Of a stretch of DNA of 64,000 nucleotides, positions 12,528-20,225 are shown piece after piece. The DNA is from Asaccharospora irregularis DSM 2635. Its GTDB lineage: Bacteria > Bacillota > Clostridia > Peptostreptococcales > Peptostreptococcaceae. The DNA lies in assembly GCF_900129815.1 (NCBI RefSeq), contig NZ_FQWX01000001.1:62001-126000 (forward strand). Direction: 5' to 3'. The translations under genes and the position numbers were made by a program. Within the stretch, counting starts at the first letter, position 1; each line of letters opens with the position of its first letter. Below the pieces are notes generated by a model. It was given only the letters and a program-made list of their open reading frames with translations, searched no databases and was not told where the DNA came from.

Positions 12528-13910
12528 CTAAAGCTTATAGTTGTTTATAAGCCTCTCTAATTCCTTAATTTGAATTTTTACAGAATAACTTGATGGTCCT
12601 CCAATTACCTTCCTTTGATTTACACAGTTTTCAAGGGAAATTTCGTTGTATACATCTTCTTTAAACACCTTTGAAAATTTATGAAGTTCACACATAGACA
12701 TATCAGAGATACATATACCTTTTTCTATACAATAAAGAACAATCTCACCCACTATCTCGTGGCATTTTCTAAAAGGAATTCCACTTTTTACTAAGTAATC
12801 TGCAAGGTCTGTTGCATTTGTAAATCCTCCATGCGCAGATTTTTCCATTACGTCCTTGTTTACTTTTAGAGTTTTAATCATTCCCGTAAATGTTATCAGT
12901 GAAAGTTTTGTTGTATCTAGGGCATCAAATAAAGCCTCCTTATCTTCTTGCATATCTTTGTTGTATGCTAAAGGTATACCCTTCATTACAGTGAGTAAAG
13001 TCACTAAATCTCCATAAACTCTACCAGTCTTTCCTCTAACCAACTCTGCAACATCGGGATTTTTCTTTTGAGGCATTATACTACTTCCAGTACTATATTC
13101 ATCAGATAATTCTATAAAATTAAATTCATTTGTACACCAAATTATAATTTCCTCTGACCATCTCGAAAGATGCATCATTATAATAGAAAGAATAGATAAA
13201 AATTCAATAACATAATCTCTATCAGACACAGAGTCTAGACTATTTAATGTTATCTTTGAAAAATTGAGCTCTCTAGCAACAAACTCCCTATCAAGAGGAT
13301 AAGTTGTTGTTGCTAGTGCCCCACTTCCTAGAGGCATTTCATCCAGTCTCTTAAAAAAATCCTCTATTCTAGATATATCACGCTTAAACATCTCAGCATA
13401 GGCTAAAAAATAATGAGCTAATGTAATAGGTTGGGCCTTTTGCATATGAGTGTAACCAGGCATTATAGTATCTATGTTTTTTGATGCTTTTTCATGAATT
13501 GCTTTTAAAAGGTCTAAAATATCCTTAATTAATAATTTGGAATTATCTTTTAAGCAAAGTTTTAAATCTAAGGCAACTTGATCGTTTCTACTTCTACCAG
13601 TATGAAGCATTTTTCCTGCCTCTCCTATATGCTCGGTTAGTGCATATTCAACAAAACTATGGATATCTTCAAAATCATCATCAATTTGAATATTATTATT
13701 TTCTATATTTTCAAGTAAATACAAAAGCCCTTCTTCGATTTTTTTACAAGAATCTATTGGAAGTATGTTTTGTGCTTTTAACATCTTAATATGTGCAATA
13801 CTTCCTAAAATATCTTCTTTGTACATTCGTTTATCGACTCTTATCGAAGAATTAAAGTCATTTACATCTTTATTTGTATTCTCATTAAATCTTCCTCCCC
13901 AAAGTTTCAC
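12528..13910 (-). CDS. argH: Argininosuccinate lyase
   Basis: ArgH splits argininosuccinate into arginine and fumarate, the last step of arginine synthesis. It is 460 residues, full length. The fumarase/aspartase superfamily signature [12 protein letters not shown] is intact at 275-286, as are TGRSRNDQ (104-111) and the region around His155 ([11 protein letters not shown]). The start is GTG at 13908-13910, overlapping the argG stop by one base, so the two are translationally coupled. The stop codon is TAG. ArgH looks functional although argG before it carries a nonsense codon, which would leave ArgH without its substrate unless that codon is read through. Confidence 0.95.
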
Positions 13911-15163
13911 TAGATCACATCCTTTTTTAGGGATTCTTTTTTTATAGAATTTTTAAGTTTGGAATGAATAGTTATAGGTAAACCAAAAAGATTTATAAAT
14001 CCTTCAGCATCGTTTTGGTCATAAACATTGTCTTCTCCGAAAGTGGCAAACTCTTCATTATACAGTGAATACGGAGATGAAATCTTTGCTGTAACTATAT
14101 TCCCTTTATATAATTTAAGCTTTACTTCTCCAGTTACATTTTCTTGTGTTTTAGATACAAATGATGATAAAGCTTCTCTAAGAGGCGTATACCATTGACC
14201 ATTGTATACTATATCTGCAAACTTCAATGAAATAACTTCCTTATAATGCATAGTTTCTCTATCTAAACATAAGGATTCAAGAGCTTTATGGGCATAATAA
14301 AGTATAGTTCCTCCTGGAGTTTCATATACACCACGAGATTTCATACCTACAAGTCTATTTTCAACCAAATCAATTATACCAATTGCATTTTCCCCACCAA
14401 TTTTATTTAATGTTTCTATTAATTTTACTCCACCTATCTTTTCGCCATTTAAAAAGGTAGGTATTCCATTTTCAAATCCCAGTGTAATATAAGTCGCCTC
14501 ATTAGGAGCATCTTCTAATGTTTTTGACATTTCTAAAATTTCCTTATAATTTGGTTCATTTTTAGGATCCTCTAAATCAAGGCCTTCGTGGCTTAGATGC
14601 TATAGATTTTTATCCTTACTATAATTAGTTTCAGGTGTGATATTTAAAGGTATTCCTTTGTTTAGTGCATACTCTATTTCTTCTTCACGAGATTTTATAT
14701 CCCAAATTCTCCAAGGTGCAATTATCGGCATATCAGGTGCAAATGATTTTATAGCGAGTTCAAATCTTACTTGATCATTACCCTTGCCAGTACAGCCATG
14801 ACATATAGCATCGGCATTTTCACTTTGAGCTATTTCGACTAATCTCTTCGCAATAATAGGTCTTGCAAAAGCCGTTCCAAGTAGATACTTTCCTTCATAA
14901 ACTGCCCCAGCTTGAAGTGTTTTAAATATATACTCATTTACAAATTCTTCTCTTATATCTTCAATATAAATTTTTGATGCACCTGTATTTATTGCTTTTT
15001 CTTCTAACCCATTAAGTTCTTCATTTTGACCGACATTACCCACAACAGCTATTACTTCTTCACATCCATAGGTCTCTTTTAGCCAAGGAATTATTATAGA
15101 AGTATCAAGTCCACCAGAGTAAGCTAAAACTACTTTATTATATTTTTTATTATGTTTTGACAT
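13910..15163 (-). pseudogene. argG: Argininosuccinate synthase, interrupted by in-frame TAG
   Basis: ArgG joins citrulline and aspartate using ATP. The N-terminal part (14600-15163) has the PP-loop YSGGLDTS and reads 187 residues to NYSKDKNL, then TAG at 14600-14602. The same frame continues without another stop to 13910. It reads [12 protein letters not shown] directly after the TAG, where family members have NLWHxSHEG. The TAG therefore replaces a conserved Trp codon TGG by one G-to-A change. An internal ATG at about 14530 could start only the C-terminal part. The rest of the protein shows no decay, so the mutation is recent, or it is a sequencing error. TAG is an ordinary stop codon for argH and pepD here, which argues against suppression. 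Confidence 0.9.
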
Positions 15164-15209: not shown

Positions 15210-15254
15210 CCCGCCAACTAATCTTATAAATGTAAGAAAGTATTAGTTAGCAGG
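15210..15254. other. Stem-loop between ABC transporter operon and argG
   Basis: Arms 15210-15222 and 15242-15254 pair over 13 positions. On the minus strand two of these pairs are G-U, so the hairpin forms best in the transporter-to-argG transcript. No T run follows on that strand; a T run follows on the plus strand instead. It may stabilise or separate the two messages. A minus-strand terminator is not convincing. Confidence 0.45.
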
Positions 15255-15274: not shown

Positions 15275-16000
15275 TTAAATAAGTATTTTATCAAAGAATT
15301 CAATTGCTCTTTTGTTACTAGGATTTATAAATACATCTTCTGGGGAACCATCCTCTAGAATAACTCCCTCATCCATAAATATAACTCTGTCTGCTATTTC
15401 CTTTGCAAATCCCATTTCATGAGTTACTATAACCATAGTCATACCATCTTTGGCCAGTTCTTTTATAACATCTAAAACCTCTTTTACCATTTCTGGATCA
15501 AGCGCAGAAGTCGGTTCATCAAATAGCATCATATCTGGTTGTAGTGCAAGTGCTCTAGCTATTGCCACTCTCTGCTTTTGTCCACCCGATAATTGCGATG
15601 GATATGAGTCTTTTTTATCAAGTAAGCCTACTCTCTCAAGTAAATACTTAGCTTTTTTATTAGCCTCTTCTTTGTTCATTTTTTTTAATTTTACTGGTGC
15701 CAAAGTTATATTTTCTACAATTGTCTTATGTGGAAATAGGTTGAAGTTCTGAAAAACCATTCCTATCTTTTGTCTGACACTATCTATATTAGTTTTTTTG
15801 TCTACTAAATTATATCCTTCAAATATTACCTCTCCAGATGTAGGAACTTCTAATAAATTCATACATCTAAGAAGCGTGCTTTTACCTGAACCACTCGGCC
15901 CTAGTATAACTGTTATCTGTCCTTTATCTATTTCTAGGTTTATATTTTTTAGTACTTCTACCGTACCGAAAGATTTACCTAAATTTTTTATAGTAATCAT
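15275..16000 (-). CDS. Polar amino acid ABC transporter ATP-binding protein
   Basis: This is the cytoplasmic ATPase of an amino-acid uptake system, 241 residues, of the GlnQ/ArtP/HisP group. It has Walker A GPSGSGKS (34-41), Q-loop near residue 84, ABC signature LSGGQKQR (137-144), Walker B MMLFDE with the following PTSALDPE, and the switch histidine in [10 protein letters not shown]. It is third in an operon after the binding protein and permease genes. An arginine-specific T-box leader precedes the operon, so arginine (or a relative such as ornithine) is the likely substrate. That assignment is an inference from regulation, not from the ATPase itself. Confidence 0.93.
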
Positions 16001-16067: not shown

Positions 16068-16739
16068 TTAATTTGATGCAGCCATTTTCTTTTCTAATAT
16101 ACCTACTAATTTTGACAGTGTGAATGTCAATACAAAATATATTAAAGCCGCCACTATCAATGGTTCAAGTGGTCTGTATATAACATTTTTCACTCTACTT
16201 GAAATAAACATTATATCTATTACTCCTATAACAGATATTATCGCTGATTCTTTTACAAGAGTGATAAACTCATTTGCCAAAGCAGGCAGTACGTTTTTTA
16301 TAGCTTGAGGTATAATCACATATGTCATCGTAGCCCAATATCCGAGTCCCAATGATCTACTTGCCTCAGTCTGACCCTTATCTATTGACTGTATACCTGA
16401 TCTAAATATTTCAGCTACATATGCCCCAGAATTTATAGATAGAGAAAATACCCCTGCAATAAATTCGCTCGGTATATTAAATATACTTGGAAATTCAATA
16501 CCTATCTGAGGTAAACCAAAATAAATTATATATATCTGAACAAATAGTGGAGTCCCTCTCAAAACTTCTATATATACACTTGCTATAATTCTAAATACCT
16601 TATGTTTGGATATTTTTAGTAAACATATAAATATCCCTATAATAAACCCGAAAAATAATGATGCTAATGAAATCGATACTGTTACTGATGTTCCCTCTAA
16701 GAACATCTTATAATACTCACCTAAAAAGCTAAAATCCAT
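16068..16739 (-). CDS. Polar amino acid ABC transporter permease (HisM/ArtQ-like)
   Basis: This is a membrane permease of 223 residues with about five transmembrane segments. The EAA loop that contacts the ATPase is recognisable as EASRSLGLGYWATMTYVIIP. A single permease gene is present, so the channel probably works as a homodimer. It lies 25 bases downstream of the binding-protein gene and 67 bases upstream of the ATPase gene. The ATG follows TTGGAGATGGG. Control is expected from the upstream Arg T-box. Confidence 0.93.
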   Translation of the reverse strand: MDFSFLGEYYKMFLEGTSVTVSISLASLFFGFIIGIFICLLKISKHKVFRIIASVYIEVLRGTPLFVQIYIIYFGLPQIGIEFPSIFNIPSEFIAGVFSLSINSGAYVAEIFRSGIQSIDKGQTEASRSLGLGYWATMTYVIIPQAIKNVLPALANEFITLVKESAIISVIGVIDIMFISSRVKNVIYRPLEPLIVAALIYFVLTFTLSKLVGILEKKMAASN

Positions 16740-16764: not shown

Positions 16765-17592
16765 CTACTTAGAAGCAGCTTGAGTTGTCGCTTCTTCTAA
16801 AAATTCTTTCATTTTCTCAGAATCTTTTAATTCTTTTATTTTTTTGTTTATTAAGTCTATAAGCTCTTTATTGTTTTCTCCTTTTTTAATTGCAACTGCC
16901 ATACCTTCTTCTAAATCTTCACCTATTGAACTTTTAGACATTTTTATTCCATCATATTGCTTTACATTTATCATACAAACTGACTCATTTGAAACTATTG
17001 CATCTATATTTTTATTTTTTAATTCTAATATAAGATCTGGAGTAGCCGTCAAAGACTTAGCATTATCTAATCCCAAAGTGTTAATAACATAATTTTCTTG
17101 GATACTTCCCTTTTGAACTCCCACTTTTAATTTTTTAAGGTCATCTTCTGTTTTTATCTTATCTTCATCACCATCTCTAACTATAACTGCATTTTTGCTT
17201 ATATAATATAAGTCTGAAAAATCAACACTTTTTTCTCTCTCTTCAGTTGGAGACATACCTGCAAGTACAACGTCAACCTTATCAGCATTTAATGCTCCTA
17301 TTAAACCATCAAAATCTATTTCTTTGTACTCAACTTCTACTCCGATTTCCTTAGCTATCTCTTGTGCCAGTAAATCATCAAAACCTACTATCTTATCTTC
17401 ACCATCTACCATTTTATGAAATTCAAACGGTGGAAAATCTGCACTTGTTCCTATAACTATTTTTGAATTTTTCTTTATTTCCTCTAACTTATTTGCTTCT
17501 TGATTATCCGTAGATTTACCACTACATCCTACTAGTGACACTGCCAACCCCAATACTACTCCATAGCTTAATAATTTTTTTAATACCTTCAT
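16765..17592 (-). CDS. Amino acid ABC transporter substrate-binding lipoprotein
   Basis: This extracellular solute-binding protein of family 3 has 275 residues. Its signal peptide ends in the lipobox SLVGCSGK, with Cys23 as the lipidated residue. The body has SBP_bac_3 features such as IVIGTSADFPPFEF near the start and VDVVLAGMSPTEERE. It is the first gene of the transporter operon. A leader of roughly 520 bases with one T-box Stem I and two terminator modules precedes it. The specifier codon AGA indicates control by uncharged tRNA-Arg, so arginine or a close relative is the likely ligand. Confidence 0.93.
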   Translation of the reverse strand: MKVLKKLLSYGVVLGLAVSLVGCSGKSTDNQEANKLEEIKKNSKIVIGTSADFPPFEFHKMVDGEDKIVGFDDLLAQEIAKEIGVEVEYKEIDFDGLIGALNADKVDVVLAGMSPTEEREKSVDFSDLYYISKNAVIVRDGDEDKIKTEDDLKKLKVGVQKGSIQENYVINTLGLDNAKSLTATPDLILELKNKNIDAIVSNESVCMINVKQYDGIKMSKSSIGEDLEEGMAVAIKKGENNKELIDLINKKIKELKDSEKMKEFLEEATTQAASK

Positions 17593-17702: not shown

Positions 17703-17762
17703 ATTAAAAAAGTCCCTTAGTCTAGACGACTAAGAGACGAATTTTCCGCGTTACCACTCTTA
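17703..17762 (-). promoter_or_regulatory. Second T-box antiterminator/terminator module (no Stem I)
   Basis: This is a near-exact copy of the T-box sequence (17746-17760) plus terminator found in the full leader just upstream. It ends in a T run on the minus strand. The 100 or so bases between the two modules contain no second Stem I or specifier loop. A transcript must pass two tRNA-sensing terminators before reaching the binding-protein gene. Confidence 0.8.
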
Positions 17763-17860
17763 TTGATAAATATAAACATAAATCAAATCAAATAGTTTTA
17801 TCGTCAAATATTCAGATATATAAATCTCTCTAGATATCTACATATCCGGATATTTATATA

Positions 17861-18095
17861 TTAAAAAAGTCCCTTAGTCTAAACGACTAAGAGACGAATA
17901 TTTTCCGCGTTACCACTCTTTTTGATAAGTAAATACTTATCCTCTTAACACCTTAAGGCGGCATACCTATTATCATACTAAAATTTCCGATAATCTCCTC
18001 CGAAGCTCTCTTCACTCCAAATCTCAATACTAGGCTCACACCAACCCTAGCTCGCTGAAAATCAATTTAGGTTACTCTCTTCCTCAATAGATTTA
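17861..18095 (-). promoter_or_regulatory. T-box leader with Arg (AGA) specifier
   Basis: The minus-strand leader has Stem I, the T-box sequence AGAGTGGTAACGCGG (17905-17919) and a terminator with T run (about 17866-17898). Stem I carries an AGAGAGTA loop-E strand. The specifier strand reads GAAG-AGA-GC with AGA at 18007-18009. The pheST leader in this window reads GAAG-TTC-GC at the same place, which fixes the register and supports AGA (Arg). Uncharged tRNA-Arg should favour antitermination and so raise transporter expression. Confidence 0.85.
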
Positions 18096-18115
18096 TTTAT
18101 CAAATTGTTAATATA

Positions 18116-18144
18116 ATTATAATTATATATTTTTTATATGTCAA
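18116..18144 (-). promoter_or_regulatory. Consensus sigma-A promoter of the Arg T-box leader
   Basis: TTGACA (18144-18139), a 17-base spacer and TATAAT (18121-18116) on the minus strand match the sigma-A consensus at all twelve positions. Transcription should begin near 18109, at the base of Stem I. With a perfect promoter, regulation must fall on the T-box. Confidence 0.9.
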
Positions 18145-18176: not shown

Positions 18177-20225
18177 TTATATCTTGTTCACTAAACCACT
18201 AAGTACACAAGTTGCAAAGTCTAGTTCTACTTCTTTATCCTTAAATTTAACCTTAATTTTCTGTCCATTTTTTTCTATAATTTCACCTATTTTAAATTTT
18301 TTGTGGTAAATTTTATCACCTATTACTATGCTATTTAATTCTTTTTCTGTAGGTCTTTTTATATCATCTATAAACGTAGATTTTTGTACCTTTTTACCAT
18401 ACTTATTTAAAGTTGATGATATACATAATCTCTCCTGAGCTCTAGTTATTCCAACATAGAAAAGTCTTCGTTCTTCTTCAATTTGATCATTTTTTATTTT
18501 TTCATCCTCTACATAATAAGACTTCTCATGTGGAACTGTACCTTCATTTACCCCTATTATGTATACATTCTTAAATTCCAATCCTTTGGAACTATGCATA
18601 GTTGTAAAAATAACTCCATCTGAATGAGTACTTTTTTTATTTTCTGATAGCTCAGCCTTTACTCTGTCAATATGACTCAAATACTCATCTATAGTCGTAA
18701 AATTACTAGCTGAACTCTCCAACTCATTTAGTATCTCTATAATTCCATTAGTCTTTATCTTTCTATTTGCACAGTAGTCTAATATGTATCTGTCGTAATC
18801 TAAACTTGTCCTTATATAAGATATTGCATTTTTAGGATTTAAAGTTTTTAAATAGCTTAAATCTATTTCTAAATCATTTATAGTTTTGATTTGTTTTGGG
18901 TGAAGATCGCATTTATTTATAAGTGCATTTATAAAATCTTCTTCGTCCTTTACCATATTTATATTTTCTCTAGATATATACCTAAAAGGTTTGTTTATTA
19001 TTCTGGCCCAGTCCTTATTTGATTTTAAGTTCATTCCTATTCTTAGGTAAGCCAATATATCTTGAGATGTCCAGTGATCATATATAGTTATTACAGAATC
19101 CTTTACTATAAACGGTATTCTCATATCCATAAAAACATCTACAAGTGCTCTAGATTGTATATTTGTTCTATATATAACCGCAAAATCGCTATACTCAACA
19201 TAATCTTTTTTTATCTCTTCAAGTATTTCTTTTCCTATAAACACAGCCTCCTCTTCAGAGTCATGAGGGGATATATAATTTACAGAACCCCCTTCTCCTT
19301 GAGTGCATTTTATTACTTTTTCATGTCTATTTGTATTTTTTTCTATAAGTCTATTTGCTGTGTCAATTATCTCACTTTTTGACCTATAATTTATATCTAA
19401 GACTATTTTTTTAGCCCCTTTGAAGTAAGTTTGAAATTCTAATAAAAAGTCAGGTCTAGCCCCTCTAAACCCATATATACTTTGGTCTTCATCTCCGACA
19501 ACAAATATATTATTCTCCGGGTTAGATATTAATTTTAGTACCTCGAATTGAGCTTTATTTATATCTTGAAACTCATCCACAAGTATGTATTTATATGCTT
19601 TTCTAACTGCATCTAATACAGTTTTATTGTTTTGTAATAAGTAGTAAGTCTTTATTAACATATCATCAAAATCTATCTTATTAATTTGTCCCTTGTACTC
19701 TTCATATAAATTGTATACTTTTGTAAATTCATCCTTAGTTAGAATTTCTGAAGTAAAATCTATATTATCCATAAGTTCATTTTTTACATAAGAGATTTCA
19801 TTAATTACCTGATTGACGATTTCATCATCTTCTCCATTTTCTACATTCAATCCCTTCATTATTCCCTTTATAGCTATTCTCTTAGACTTTTCGTCAAGTA
19901 TACTTTCAGAACTATATCCTCCAAAATACCTCAGTATTCTAAAAAATAATGAGTGAAATGTTCCATATGTAACTTTAGCCATTCTTGGGTCATTATTTAA
20001 AGATAATGCTCTATTTTTCATTTCTATTGAAGATGCCTTTGTAAAACTTACCGCAAGTATCCTTCTTGGATTTATGTTATTATTTAAAACCATATTCTCT
20101 ATTCTATAGGTTATCACCCTAGTTTTTCCTGAACCTGGCCCTGCAAGAACCATACAAGGTCCCTCTATGTGTCTAACAGCCTCCATCTGGCTTTCATTTA
20201 ATTTATTTATAATAGTATTCACCAC
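18177..20225 (-). CDS. UvrD/PcrA-family ATP-dependent DNA helicase
   Basis: This superfamily 1 3'-5' DNA helicase of 682 residues is likely used in repair or replication restart. It has motif I AGPGSGKT (28-35), motif II with VDEFQDIN, motif III GDEDQSIYGFRGARP, motif V HSSKGLEF and motif VI ERRLFYVGITRAQERL. A PcrA-like C-terminal region of about 45 residues ends the protein (VIGDKIYHKKFKIGEI). It is shorter than typical PcrA (about 720-750), so it may be a paralogue. The start is uncertain: a GTG at 20225 is used here, but it overlaps the best ribosome binding site AAGGTGG. The stop is followed directly by the Arg T-box promoter. Confidence 0.9.
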   Translation of the reverse strand: MVNTIINKLNESQMEAVRHIEGPCMVLAGPGSGKTRVITYRIENMVLNNNINPRRILAVSFTKASSIEMKNRALSLNNDPRMAKVTYGTFHSLFFRILRYFGGYSSESILDEKSKRIAIKGIMKGLNVENGEDDEIVNQVINEISYVKNELMDNIDFTSEILTKDEFTKVYNLYEEYKGQINKIDFDDMLIKTYYLLQNNKTVLDAVRKAYKYILVDEFQDINKAQFEVLKLISNPENNIFVVGDEDQSIYGFRGARPDFLLEFQTYFKGAKKIVLDINYRSKSEIIDTANRLIEKNTNRHEKVIKCTQGEGGSVNYISPHDSEEEAVFIGKEILEEIKKDYVEYSDFAVIYRTNIQSRALVDVFMDMRIPFIVKDSVITIYDHWTSQDILAYLRIGMNLKSNKDWARIINKPFRYISRENINMVKDEEDFINALINKCDLHPKQIKTINDLEIDLSYLKTLNPKNAISYIRTSLDYDRYILDYCANRKIKTNGIIEILNELESSASNFTTIDEYLSHIDRVKAELSENKKSTHSDGVIFTTMHSSKGLEFKNVYIIGVNEGTVPHEKSYYVEDEKIKNDQIEEERRLFYVGITRAQERLCISSTLNKYGKKVQKSTFIDDIKRPTEKELNSIVIGDKIYHKKFKIGEIIEKNGQKIKVKFKDKEVELDFATCVLSGLVNKI

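Follow-up and report, generated by a model that had tools for sequence, protein, structure and literature searches.

A T-box leader with one Stem I and two antiterminator/terminator modules that may share a single Stem III 5' arm

We consider it probable, with a probability of about 0.6, that the leader preceding a set of ABC transporter genes in the window (the whole 64,000-nucleotide stretch of DNA analysed here) functions as a T-box riboswitch of the transcriptional class whose output part is duplicated, and in which one tRNA would be tested at antiterminator 1 and then, after an exchange of Stem III 3' arms, once more at antiterminator 2. The repeated unit appears to begin at the Stem III 3' arm, and one 5' arm is predicted to serve both modules in register. 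The features of the leader and of the neighbouring genes are collected in Table 1.

Table 1. Features of the leader and its surroundings, in window coordinates; here and in the text, articles given by PMC number are cited from the parts available to us.
Feature	Coordinates	Strand	Basis or remark
Sigma-A type promoter, TTGACA-17-TATAAT	18116..18144	-	12/12 consensus matches
Complete T-box: Stem I, Stem II, IIA/B, Stem III, antiterminator 1	17887..18096	-	RF00230
Specifier AGA (Arg), complementary to anticodon UCU	18007..18009	-	Infernal alignment register
Single purine string AAGAG (RRRxG) preceding Stem III	17942..17946	-	Sequence; motif per PMC7583486
Single, putatively shared Stem III 5' arm GAUAAGUAU	17933..17941	-	Last two bases are loop in Stem III of module 1 (Stem III-1)
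Stem III 3' arm, module 1	17924..17930	-	7 bp with 17941-17935; same helix in relatives
Antiterminator 1, T-box bulge UGGU at 17915-17912	17890..17919	-	RF00230 alignment and helix assignment
Terminator 1	17863..17895	-	Hairpin 17895-17869, 11 bp, then U6
Linker between modules, 89 nt, without Stem I	17774..17862	-	Sequence, RF00230
Stem III 3' arm, module 2	17765..17773	-	9 bp in register with the putative shared 5' arm 17941-17933
Antiterminator 2, T-box bulge UGGU at 17756-17753	17733..17760	-	Partial RF00230 match
Terminator 2	17706..17738	-	Hairpin 17738-17712, 11 bp, then U6
First controlled gene, amino-acid ABC solute-binding protein	16765..17592	-	PF00497, 114.4 bits
ABC permease	16068..16739	-	PF00528
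ABC ATPase	15275..16000	-	PF00005
UvrD/PcrA-like helicase gene	18177-20225		Promoter of the leader located downstream of this gene

The original prediction had described one Stem I followed by two antiterminator/terminator modules and had proposed the Rfam T-box model in Infernal as a check. That search returned a full RF00230 match only at module 1 (18096-17887; whole model, 1-219 of 219; 134.1 bits, gathering score 93) and a partial one at module 2 (17802-17733; model positions 164-216 only; 26.6 bits, below the 93-bit gathering score), with no second Stem I between the modules, where the model matched solely with the end that belongs to the second module. Together with the two 11-bp terminators, this bears out the predicted anatomy. 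The full-model match and the specifier place the leader among T-box riboswitches, and a single Stem I with more than one antiterminator/terminator places it among the partially tandem ones. By sequence and helix assignment, both modules contain the UGGN bulge and a mutually exclusive antiterminator and terminator, their GTGG motifs being spaced 159 nt apart. The two terminators are terminator-like hairpins with 11 pairs and a T run each (shuffles of the region contain 0.2 on average), and the promoter announced as perfect matches the sigma-A consensus at all 12 positions (18144-18116), the only perfect one of five promoter-like sites in the leader region, compared to 8.6 in shuffles. One possible Stem III 5' arm lies within the linker (17802-17797), preceded by UUGAC and not by RRRxG, and the module 2 arm could form a local 6-bp alternative with it. 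An RF00230 search of the organism's own genome (E <= 0.001) found 21 full T-boxes and a single partial one, the second module of this leader. We rejected the assignment as a complete tandem T-box, since neither the window leader nor any of 20 relatives and 14 loci outside the family that were scanned has a full RF00230 match at module 2, and likewise the assignment of module 2 as a self-sufficient discriminator (RRRxG - Stem III - AA - antiterminator), since it has no Stem III 5' arm of its own that follows RRRxG. A complete tandem T-box, with two full RF00230 matches, is found (contig C28 of the same genome, 6840-7385; L003, L005) before a gene that reads like homoserine dehydrogenase; such a tandem has been reported for C. 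difficile CD1580 (homoserine dehydrogenase; PMC11477304).

The predicted AGA specifier (18009-18007) held as well. In the Infernal alignment it stands in the same register (GAAG-NNN-G) as the UUC of the window's leader at 62559-62334, 3' of which lies a frame that reads like PheS, and a tRNA with UCU is present in the genome. This tRNA was called 'Pyl, cta' by ARAGORN on the organism's own draft genome (L221:539-615, contig C9). Its 7-nt loop CUUCUAA, within an ACGCC/GGCGU stem, places UCU at the anticodon position, and its 3' end is A-CCA (A73), complementary to the UGGU of both modules; by the standard reading of a 7-nt loop it is a predicted tRNA-Arg(UCU), the partner of the AGA specifier. 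A pattern search for tRNA-Arg(UCU) gave 16 noise-like matches, with 17 in the reversed control, and the gap range of that pattern excludes the tRNA at L221:539-615, which was found by covariance model. Among the controlled genes, the solute-binding protein has lysine/arginine/ornithine TIGR01096 and the ABC ATPase has GlnQ as best NCBIfam match, both under cut-off; the transporter can be called arginine-like only by family, no equivalog cut-off having been reached. The transporter genes are followed by argG (13910-15163, reverse strand), in which an in-frame stop at 14600-14602 leaves separate N-terminal and C-terminal frames. Given this interruption, the strain may depend on imported arginine; alternatively, the stop could be a sequencing error. 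Between the ABC ATPase gene and argG (15210-15254, reverse strand) a hairpin of about 13 bp, CCTGCTAACTAAT...ATTAGTTGGCGGG, is visible by eye, without a T run. Inside the helicase gene, 18406-18506 (reverse strand) matches RF03531 (n00280), a C. difficile sRNA; the same family was found near the leader in 6 of 20 scanned relatives, in 4 of them above the gathering score.

The original prediction had called such a half-duplication unusual, a judgement that did not stand: the architecture, which we refer to as half-tandem, is common in the family of the source organism, it recurs elsewhere, and partially tandem T-boxes are in print. A search with the leader DNA gave matches in at least 69 of 71 family genomes, a match alone not being equivalent to a half-tandem. 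Of the 90 family leaders that we fetched, 64 contain a pair of strict T-box motifs separated by under 230 nt, a fraction biased upwards by their selection as top matches to a half-tandem query; the other 26 comprise 23 with one motif, two with a second motif at 259 and 357 nt, and one with none. L112 joins the half-tandems under relaxed criteria. L106, in which the surroundings of the first motif differ and appear to be rearranged, was dropped before counting, and identical module stretches (L052, L055, re-fetched copies) were removed. Scanned with RF00230, 20 of 20 relatives matched this leader in full only at module 1, with one additional full match elsewhere in L043. Judged by short sequence signatures and not by family models, the genes behind the family leaders include binding-protein-like genes, argG, argH, argF, argC and others; the C. 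difficile T-box list in PMC11477304 contains amino-acid transporters, the argC product, and both argininosuccinate synthase and argininosuccinate lyase. This list and the match to a C. difficile-type sRNA point to Peptostreptococcaceae as the family of the window. By eye, the linker hardly aligns between genera, and no conserved hairpin was found in it.

As UGG was part of the search motif, its conservation is circular and carries no weight as evidence for a sensor in module 2. At all 64 family loci both modules have U as the N of UGGN, AA follows both Stem III 3' arms at all 54 distinct loci, and a terminator stands behind both motifs in 63 of the 64 half-tandems. No second terminator without a T-box-like motif was found among the 23 family leaders with a single strict motif; the only one of them with a second terminator, L112, has a T-box-like variant preceding it. 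In the family leaders compared, a second terminator comes with a second T-box.

Pairing statistics were computed for the 54 distinct loci among the 64 half-tandems. The helix that the 3' arm of module 2 (arm 2) can form with the shared 5' arm has a median length of 8 bp, compared to a mean of 6.2 bp for Stem III-1 itself and a median of 3 bp for the best local partner. Six or more contiguous base pairs were found for the shared helix at 44 of 54 loci and for a local helix at 4; the shared helix exceeds Stem III-1 in length at 42 loci and equals it at 3, and the local helix exceeds the shared one at 3. Following RRRNG, a local stem of at least 5 bp occurs at 0 of 54 distinct loci and one of at least 4 bp at 0 of 64. 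Poor in-register pairing (3 of 6) was seen for L073 and L080. When the register was slid from -3 to +3, each displacement yielded 6 contiguous bp at 0 of 54 loci. This comparison points to one 5' arm complementary to two 3' arms in a single register, with a local substitute being rare in the family.

The two strands also appear to covary. In an alignment of 32 loci, in which each combination of genus and 5'-arm class is represented once, the helix of arm 2 was paired in 96.2% of 208 cells, as opposed to 29-51% in slid registers, with changes on both sides at 6 of 7 pairs (23 such cells) and a covariation value of 0.400 vs 0.213 in shuffles, none of 500 of which reached it. Canonical Stem III-1 gave 98.4% paired cells and both-side changes at 5 of 6 pairs in the same alignment. 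In-register pairing exceeded that of permuted partners (0 of 5000 permutations reached it), equally so in the reduced set of 32. The first three loop positions of Stem III-1 were paired with arm 2 in 72% of cases, compared to 49% with permuted partners (0 of 5000) and to the 43% expected if arm 2 merely copied arm 1; the larger set gave 69% vs 48%. Differences between arms 1 and 2 fall on 4 of 141 cells opposite A and on 40 of 166 opposite G or U (Fisher p 2e-8), avoiding the former, where any change breaks the pair. The covariation is three-way: arm 2 seems to have originated as a copy of arm 1, so that similarity by itself says little and part of the signal reflects shared ancestry. The permutations leave relatedness in; reducing the set to a single locus for each genus and arm class did not alter the outcome. 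Other measures were less favourable. Free-register RNAduplex energies showed nothing beyond dinucleotide shuffles (mean z -0.23, the same as a control segment); across clusters, the free-register duplex was weakly positive relative to permuted arms (mean -2.2 kcal/mol, p 2e-5), the family cluster being unexceptional in this comparison (percentile 0.435). Changes between the 3' arms kept the pair in 35 of 49 cases, compared to 14.7 expected under uniform chance, but this was not significant under a transition-biased null (29.3 expected, p 0.06), under which other lineages gave 41 of 91 with 45.4 expected.

Folding estimates, all of them equilibrium values with the tRNA absent, were in part dependent on what was included. 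As isolated duplexes, arm 2 was more stable on the 5' arm than Stem III-1 at 43 of 54 loci (mean -6.2 vs -4.1 kcal/mol). With terminator 1 formed and the RNA extending up to the second T-box, the arm-2 helix had a mean pair probability of 0.61, compared to 0.25 in the case of Stem III-1, the former exceeding the latter at 36 of 54 loci and reaching 0.995 in the window leader; arms 2 swapped in from another 5'-arm class reached a mean of 0.07, with 9 of 162 above 0.5. With terminator 2 included and nothing forced, the arm-2 helix and Stem III-1 stood at 0.39 and 0.35 in the family and at 0.24 and 0.25 elsewhere. For the window, the local 6-bp stem was favoured when only hand-set helices were counted (-27.7 vs -22.4 kcal/mol), and the shared helix when the rest was left free to fold (-77.0 vs -75.4 kcal/mol).

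A T-box-pair pattern run on 391 genomes of the class matched 20, of which 5 belong to the family, 3 were false and 12 were others; the reversed control matched 8 of 391, counted by rows. The window's own genome was missed, its spacing lying beyond the pattern range, and L122, L123, L131, L138, L141 and L142 were dropped by eye as non-T-box matches (GC-rich or repeated coding-like). At the 14 T-box loci of the 12 other genomes, RF00230 matched at module 1 only, 13 times above the gathering score, and by frame reading the genes behind them look like trpE, ilvN, asnS, symporters, a serC-like aminotransferase and argG, one being unclear. A stricter pattern that was not specific to arginine, run on named genomes, yielded 70 stretches, and 68 leaders were read after omission of loci at record ends (L157, L162, L170, L200, L207) and of identical stretches. 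The 68 leaders came from Clostridium, Paenibacillus, Lysinibacillus, Priestia, Alicyclobacillus, Veillonellaceae, Dialister, Pyramidobacter, Dethiosulfovibrio, Chloroflexi and others; six leaders have three modules and three have four, and L115 from the class-wide search also has three. The half-tandem architecture is found in further families, and in phyla other than that of the window, and can comprise as many as four modules.

A total of 146 loci were grouped into 48 sequence clusters at an alignment score of 0.70. Over 7 positions, in-register pairs averaged 4.88 with the own arm vs 3.15 with foreign arms, the own arm exceeding the permuted ones in 41 of 48 clusters (p 8e-7). With a wider choice of 5' arm, granted to foreign arms likewise, contiguous pairing was 4.58 vs 1.97 bp; the own arm was ahead in 35 of 48 clusters and beat 95% of foreign arms in 22, while in 7 clusters a candidate 5' arm was missing. 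At least 6 of 7 pairs were formed in 21 of the 44 non-family clusters, compared to 2.25 expected by permutation, and the loop extension was weak there (49% vs 42%, a value reached by 90 of 3000 shuffles). Clusters outside the family are mixed; the shared arm is common, if not universal. At eight Bacillales loci with 3-4 modules each later arm fits the single 5' arm at no fewer than 6 of the 7 positions; in L115 and L163, which complete the ten loci with three or four modules, the fit in this register is poor. These eight leaders (L154, L180, L183, L186, L199, L204, L209, L213), from Paenibacillus, Lysinibacillus and Priestia, have one Stem III 5' arm each, and the gene behind them looks like a sodium-dependent transporter. 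A local stem of at least 4 bp after RRRNG was detected at 4 of 82 non-family loci (L113, L117, L178, L189), and the modules of L113, L178 and L189 that have their own RRRNG stem form just 0-2 bp with the upstream arm. A second half-tandem architecture is seen in L113, L178, L189 and L202, in which module 2 has apparently retained an RRRxG and a Stem III of its own; the Stem III of L202 was judged by eye and failed the automatic test, which L117 passed. The Stem III region is unusual in nine Veillonellaceae/Dialister leaders (L159, L161, L163, L176, L185, L195, L197, L214, L216), where, by eye, the second arm fits the upstream arm and loop in another register, as in L197 (GGUGUUCC against GGAACACC), outside the register test used.

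Considering the anatomy and the pairing together, we propose that one Stem I/II platform would hold one tRNA-Arg(UCU), with the single RRRxG and 5' arm beside it, and that the repeated unit would consist of a Stem III 3' arm, AA, an antiterminator and a terminator. In the first test, 3' arm 1 would sit on the 5' arm, and uncharged tRNA would stabilise antiterminator 1, while with charged tRNA terminator 1 would form. Polymerases that pass terminator 1 would then make 3' arm 2, which could pair with the same 5' arm and displace arm 1, since arm 2 usually has more base pairs because the loop of Stem III-1 also pairs with it. Stem III would thereby close around module 1, leaving it as a loop, and the same discriminator, anchored by the tRNA, would be rebuilt on antiterminator 2, allowing a second test ahead of terminator 2. 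When the tRNA is charged, the few polymerases leaking through terminator 1 would meet terminator 2. We infer that the arm exchange would be co-transcriptional, that the same tRNA would stay bound, and that leak at plentiful arginine would be reduced; tighter repression through two modules is plausible on this model. For the partially tandem T-boxes at large, we regard the odds as even that they operate by toehold-type strand exchange, with two to four successive 3' arms taking one 5' arm in turn and a single anchored tRNA being passed along as a form of serial proofreading, a device that would have arisen repeatedly in Bacillota, Chloroflexota and Synergistota.

The original prediction had left two readings side by side, one Stem I serving two antiterminators in turn or the second module sensing the tRNA acceptor end alone. 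The former is favoured because module 2 in the family has no RRRxG of its own and only rarely a separate Stem III 5' arm, and because module 2 can complete a discriminator with the upstream arm. That the second module should recognise the acceptor end of free tRNA without Stem I is very unlikely in our view: it does keep the T-box bulge and the antiterminator, but 5'-RRRxG-Stem III-AA-3' is required ahead of the antiterminator in a T-box discriminator, and tRNA binding by an antiterminator that lacks Stem III is very poor (Li et al. 2019, via PMC7583486), none of the 64 family loci has a local stem of at least 4 bp following RRRNG, and a module without specifier could not distinguish tRNA-Arg from other A73 tRNAs. 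It is also conceivable, if unlikely, that the anatomy is as we describe it and that the first tRNA leaves after the arm exchange, a second one binding the Stem I platform, so that two uncharged tRNAs would be needed. The platform is in principle free to rebind, and two uncharged tRNAs are the published view for contiguous T-boxes (PMC12452182), yet transcriptional T-boxes are reported to keep their tRNA without exchange once they are long enough (PMC7583486).

Three further explanations do without a second tRNA-dependent test. Module 2 might serve passively as a backup terminator against leak, with a T-box that is merely inherited from the duplication. A leak-catcher needs no sensor, and terminator 2 of the window equals terminator 1 in pairs; against this stand the 0 of 23 single-motif family leaders with a second terminator lacking a T-box-like motif, the constancy of AA and of the N of UGGN and the shared pairing of at least 6 bp at 44 of 54 loci while the linker hardly aligns, and the consideration that a second terminator which cannot be opened would block expression under starvation, all of which makes a mere backup decidedly unlikely. 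Alternatively, the module could be a decaying by-product of duplication, arm 2 resembling arm 1 by ancestry alone, as its copy-like appearance and the non-significant substitution compatibility under transition bias would allow. Covariation over many genera, a loop extension beyond that of a copy (72% vs 43%) and the occurrence in unrelated lineages, with up to four consecutive modules, render this very improbable indeed. We attach the least credence, as to something extremely improbable, to a tRNA-free relay in which antiterminator 1 frees the 3' strand of terminator 1, which then opens terminator 2 via its 5' strand. The window terminators do have identical arms, and at the 37 loci with both terminators the upper stems match at 2.43 of 3 positions vs 2.23 when permuted (3 of 3000 reach it), but this effect is small, relatedness alone could produce it, and the upper stems of terminators 1 and 2 differ in many loci. 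We retain the reading of one tRNA tested in succession at two antiterminators. A shared Stem III arm provides a concrete and cheaply testable model for partially tandem T-boxes; if true, it would show that a single RNA sensor can operate serial expression platforms by strand exchange in nature, and would be useful for the study of co-transcriptional folding, for leak suppression and for synthetic switches.

The window leader has the elements of a transcriptional T-box (RF00230), namely Stem I with its specifier, Stem II, the RRRxG...AA Stem III, UGGN, and an antiterminator competing with a terminator, but has two output modules after one platform. Vitreschak et al. 2008 (RNA 14:717) reportedly described a class with a duplicated terminator-antiterminator and an expansion of the arginine regulon in Clostridium difficile. 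We know of no repeated antiterminator for the c-di-GMP riboswitch Bc1. This riboswitch is similar in having one sensor and two terminators in one expression platform, and differs in its ligand (PMC11218506). Two T-box/terminators in series before one gene are found in contiguous T-boxes, including those of artQ-glnQ-artP transporters (PMC12452182), and two in series also in the homoserine dehydrogenase T-boxes of C. difficile (PMC11477304); unlike the window leader, both are described, in the parts of these papers available to us, as complete units, each with its own sensor. In the open-licence literature searched, as far as its texts were available to us, we found no mention of a shared Stem III arm. 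The same overall architecture as that of the window leader is known from partially tandem T-boxes, whose modes of action a 2020 review calls unknown, none being given in the part of it available to us (PMC7583486). The partially tandem architecture is therefore already known, and what we add to it is the proposal of a shared Stem III 5' arm, from which two successive modules could consult the same tRNA.
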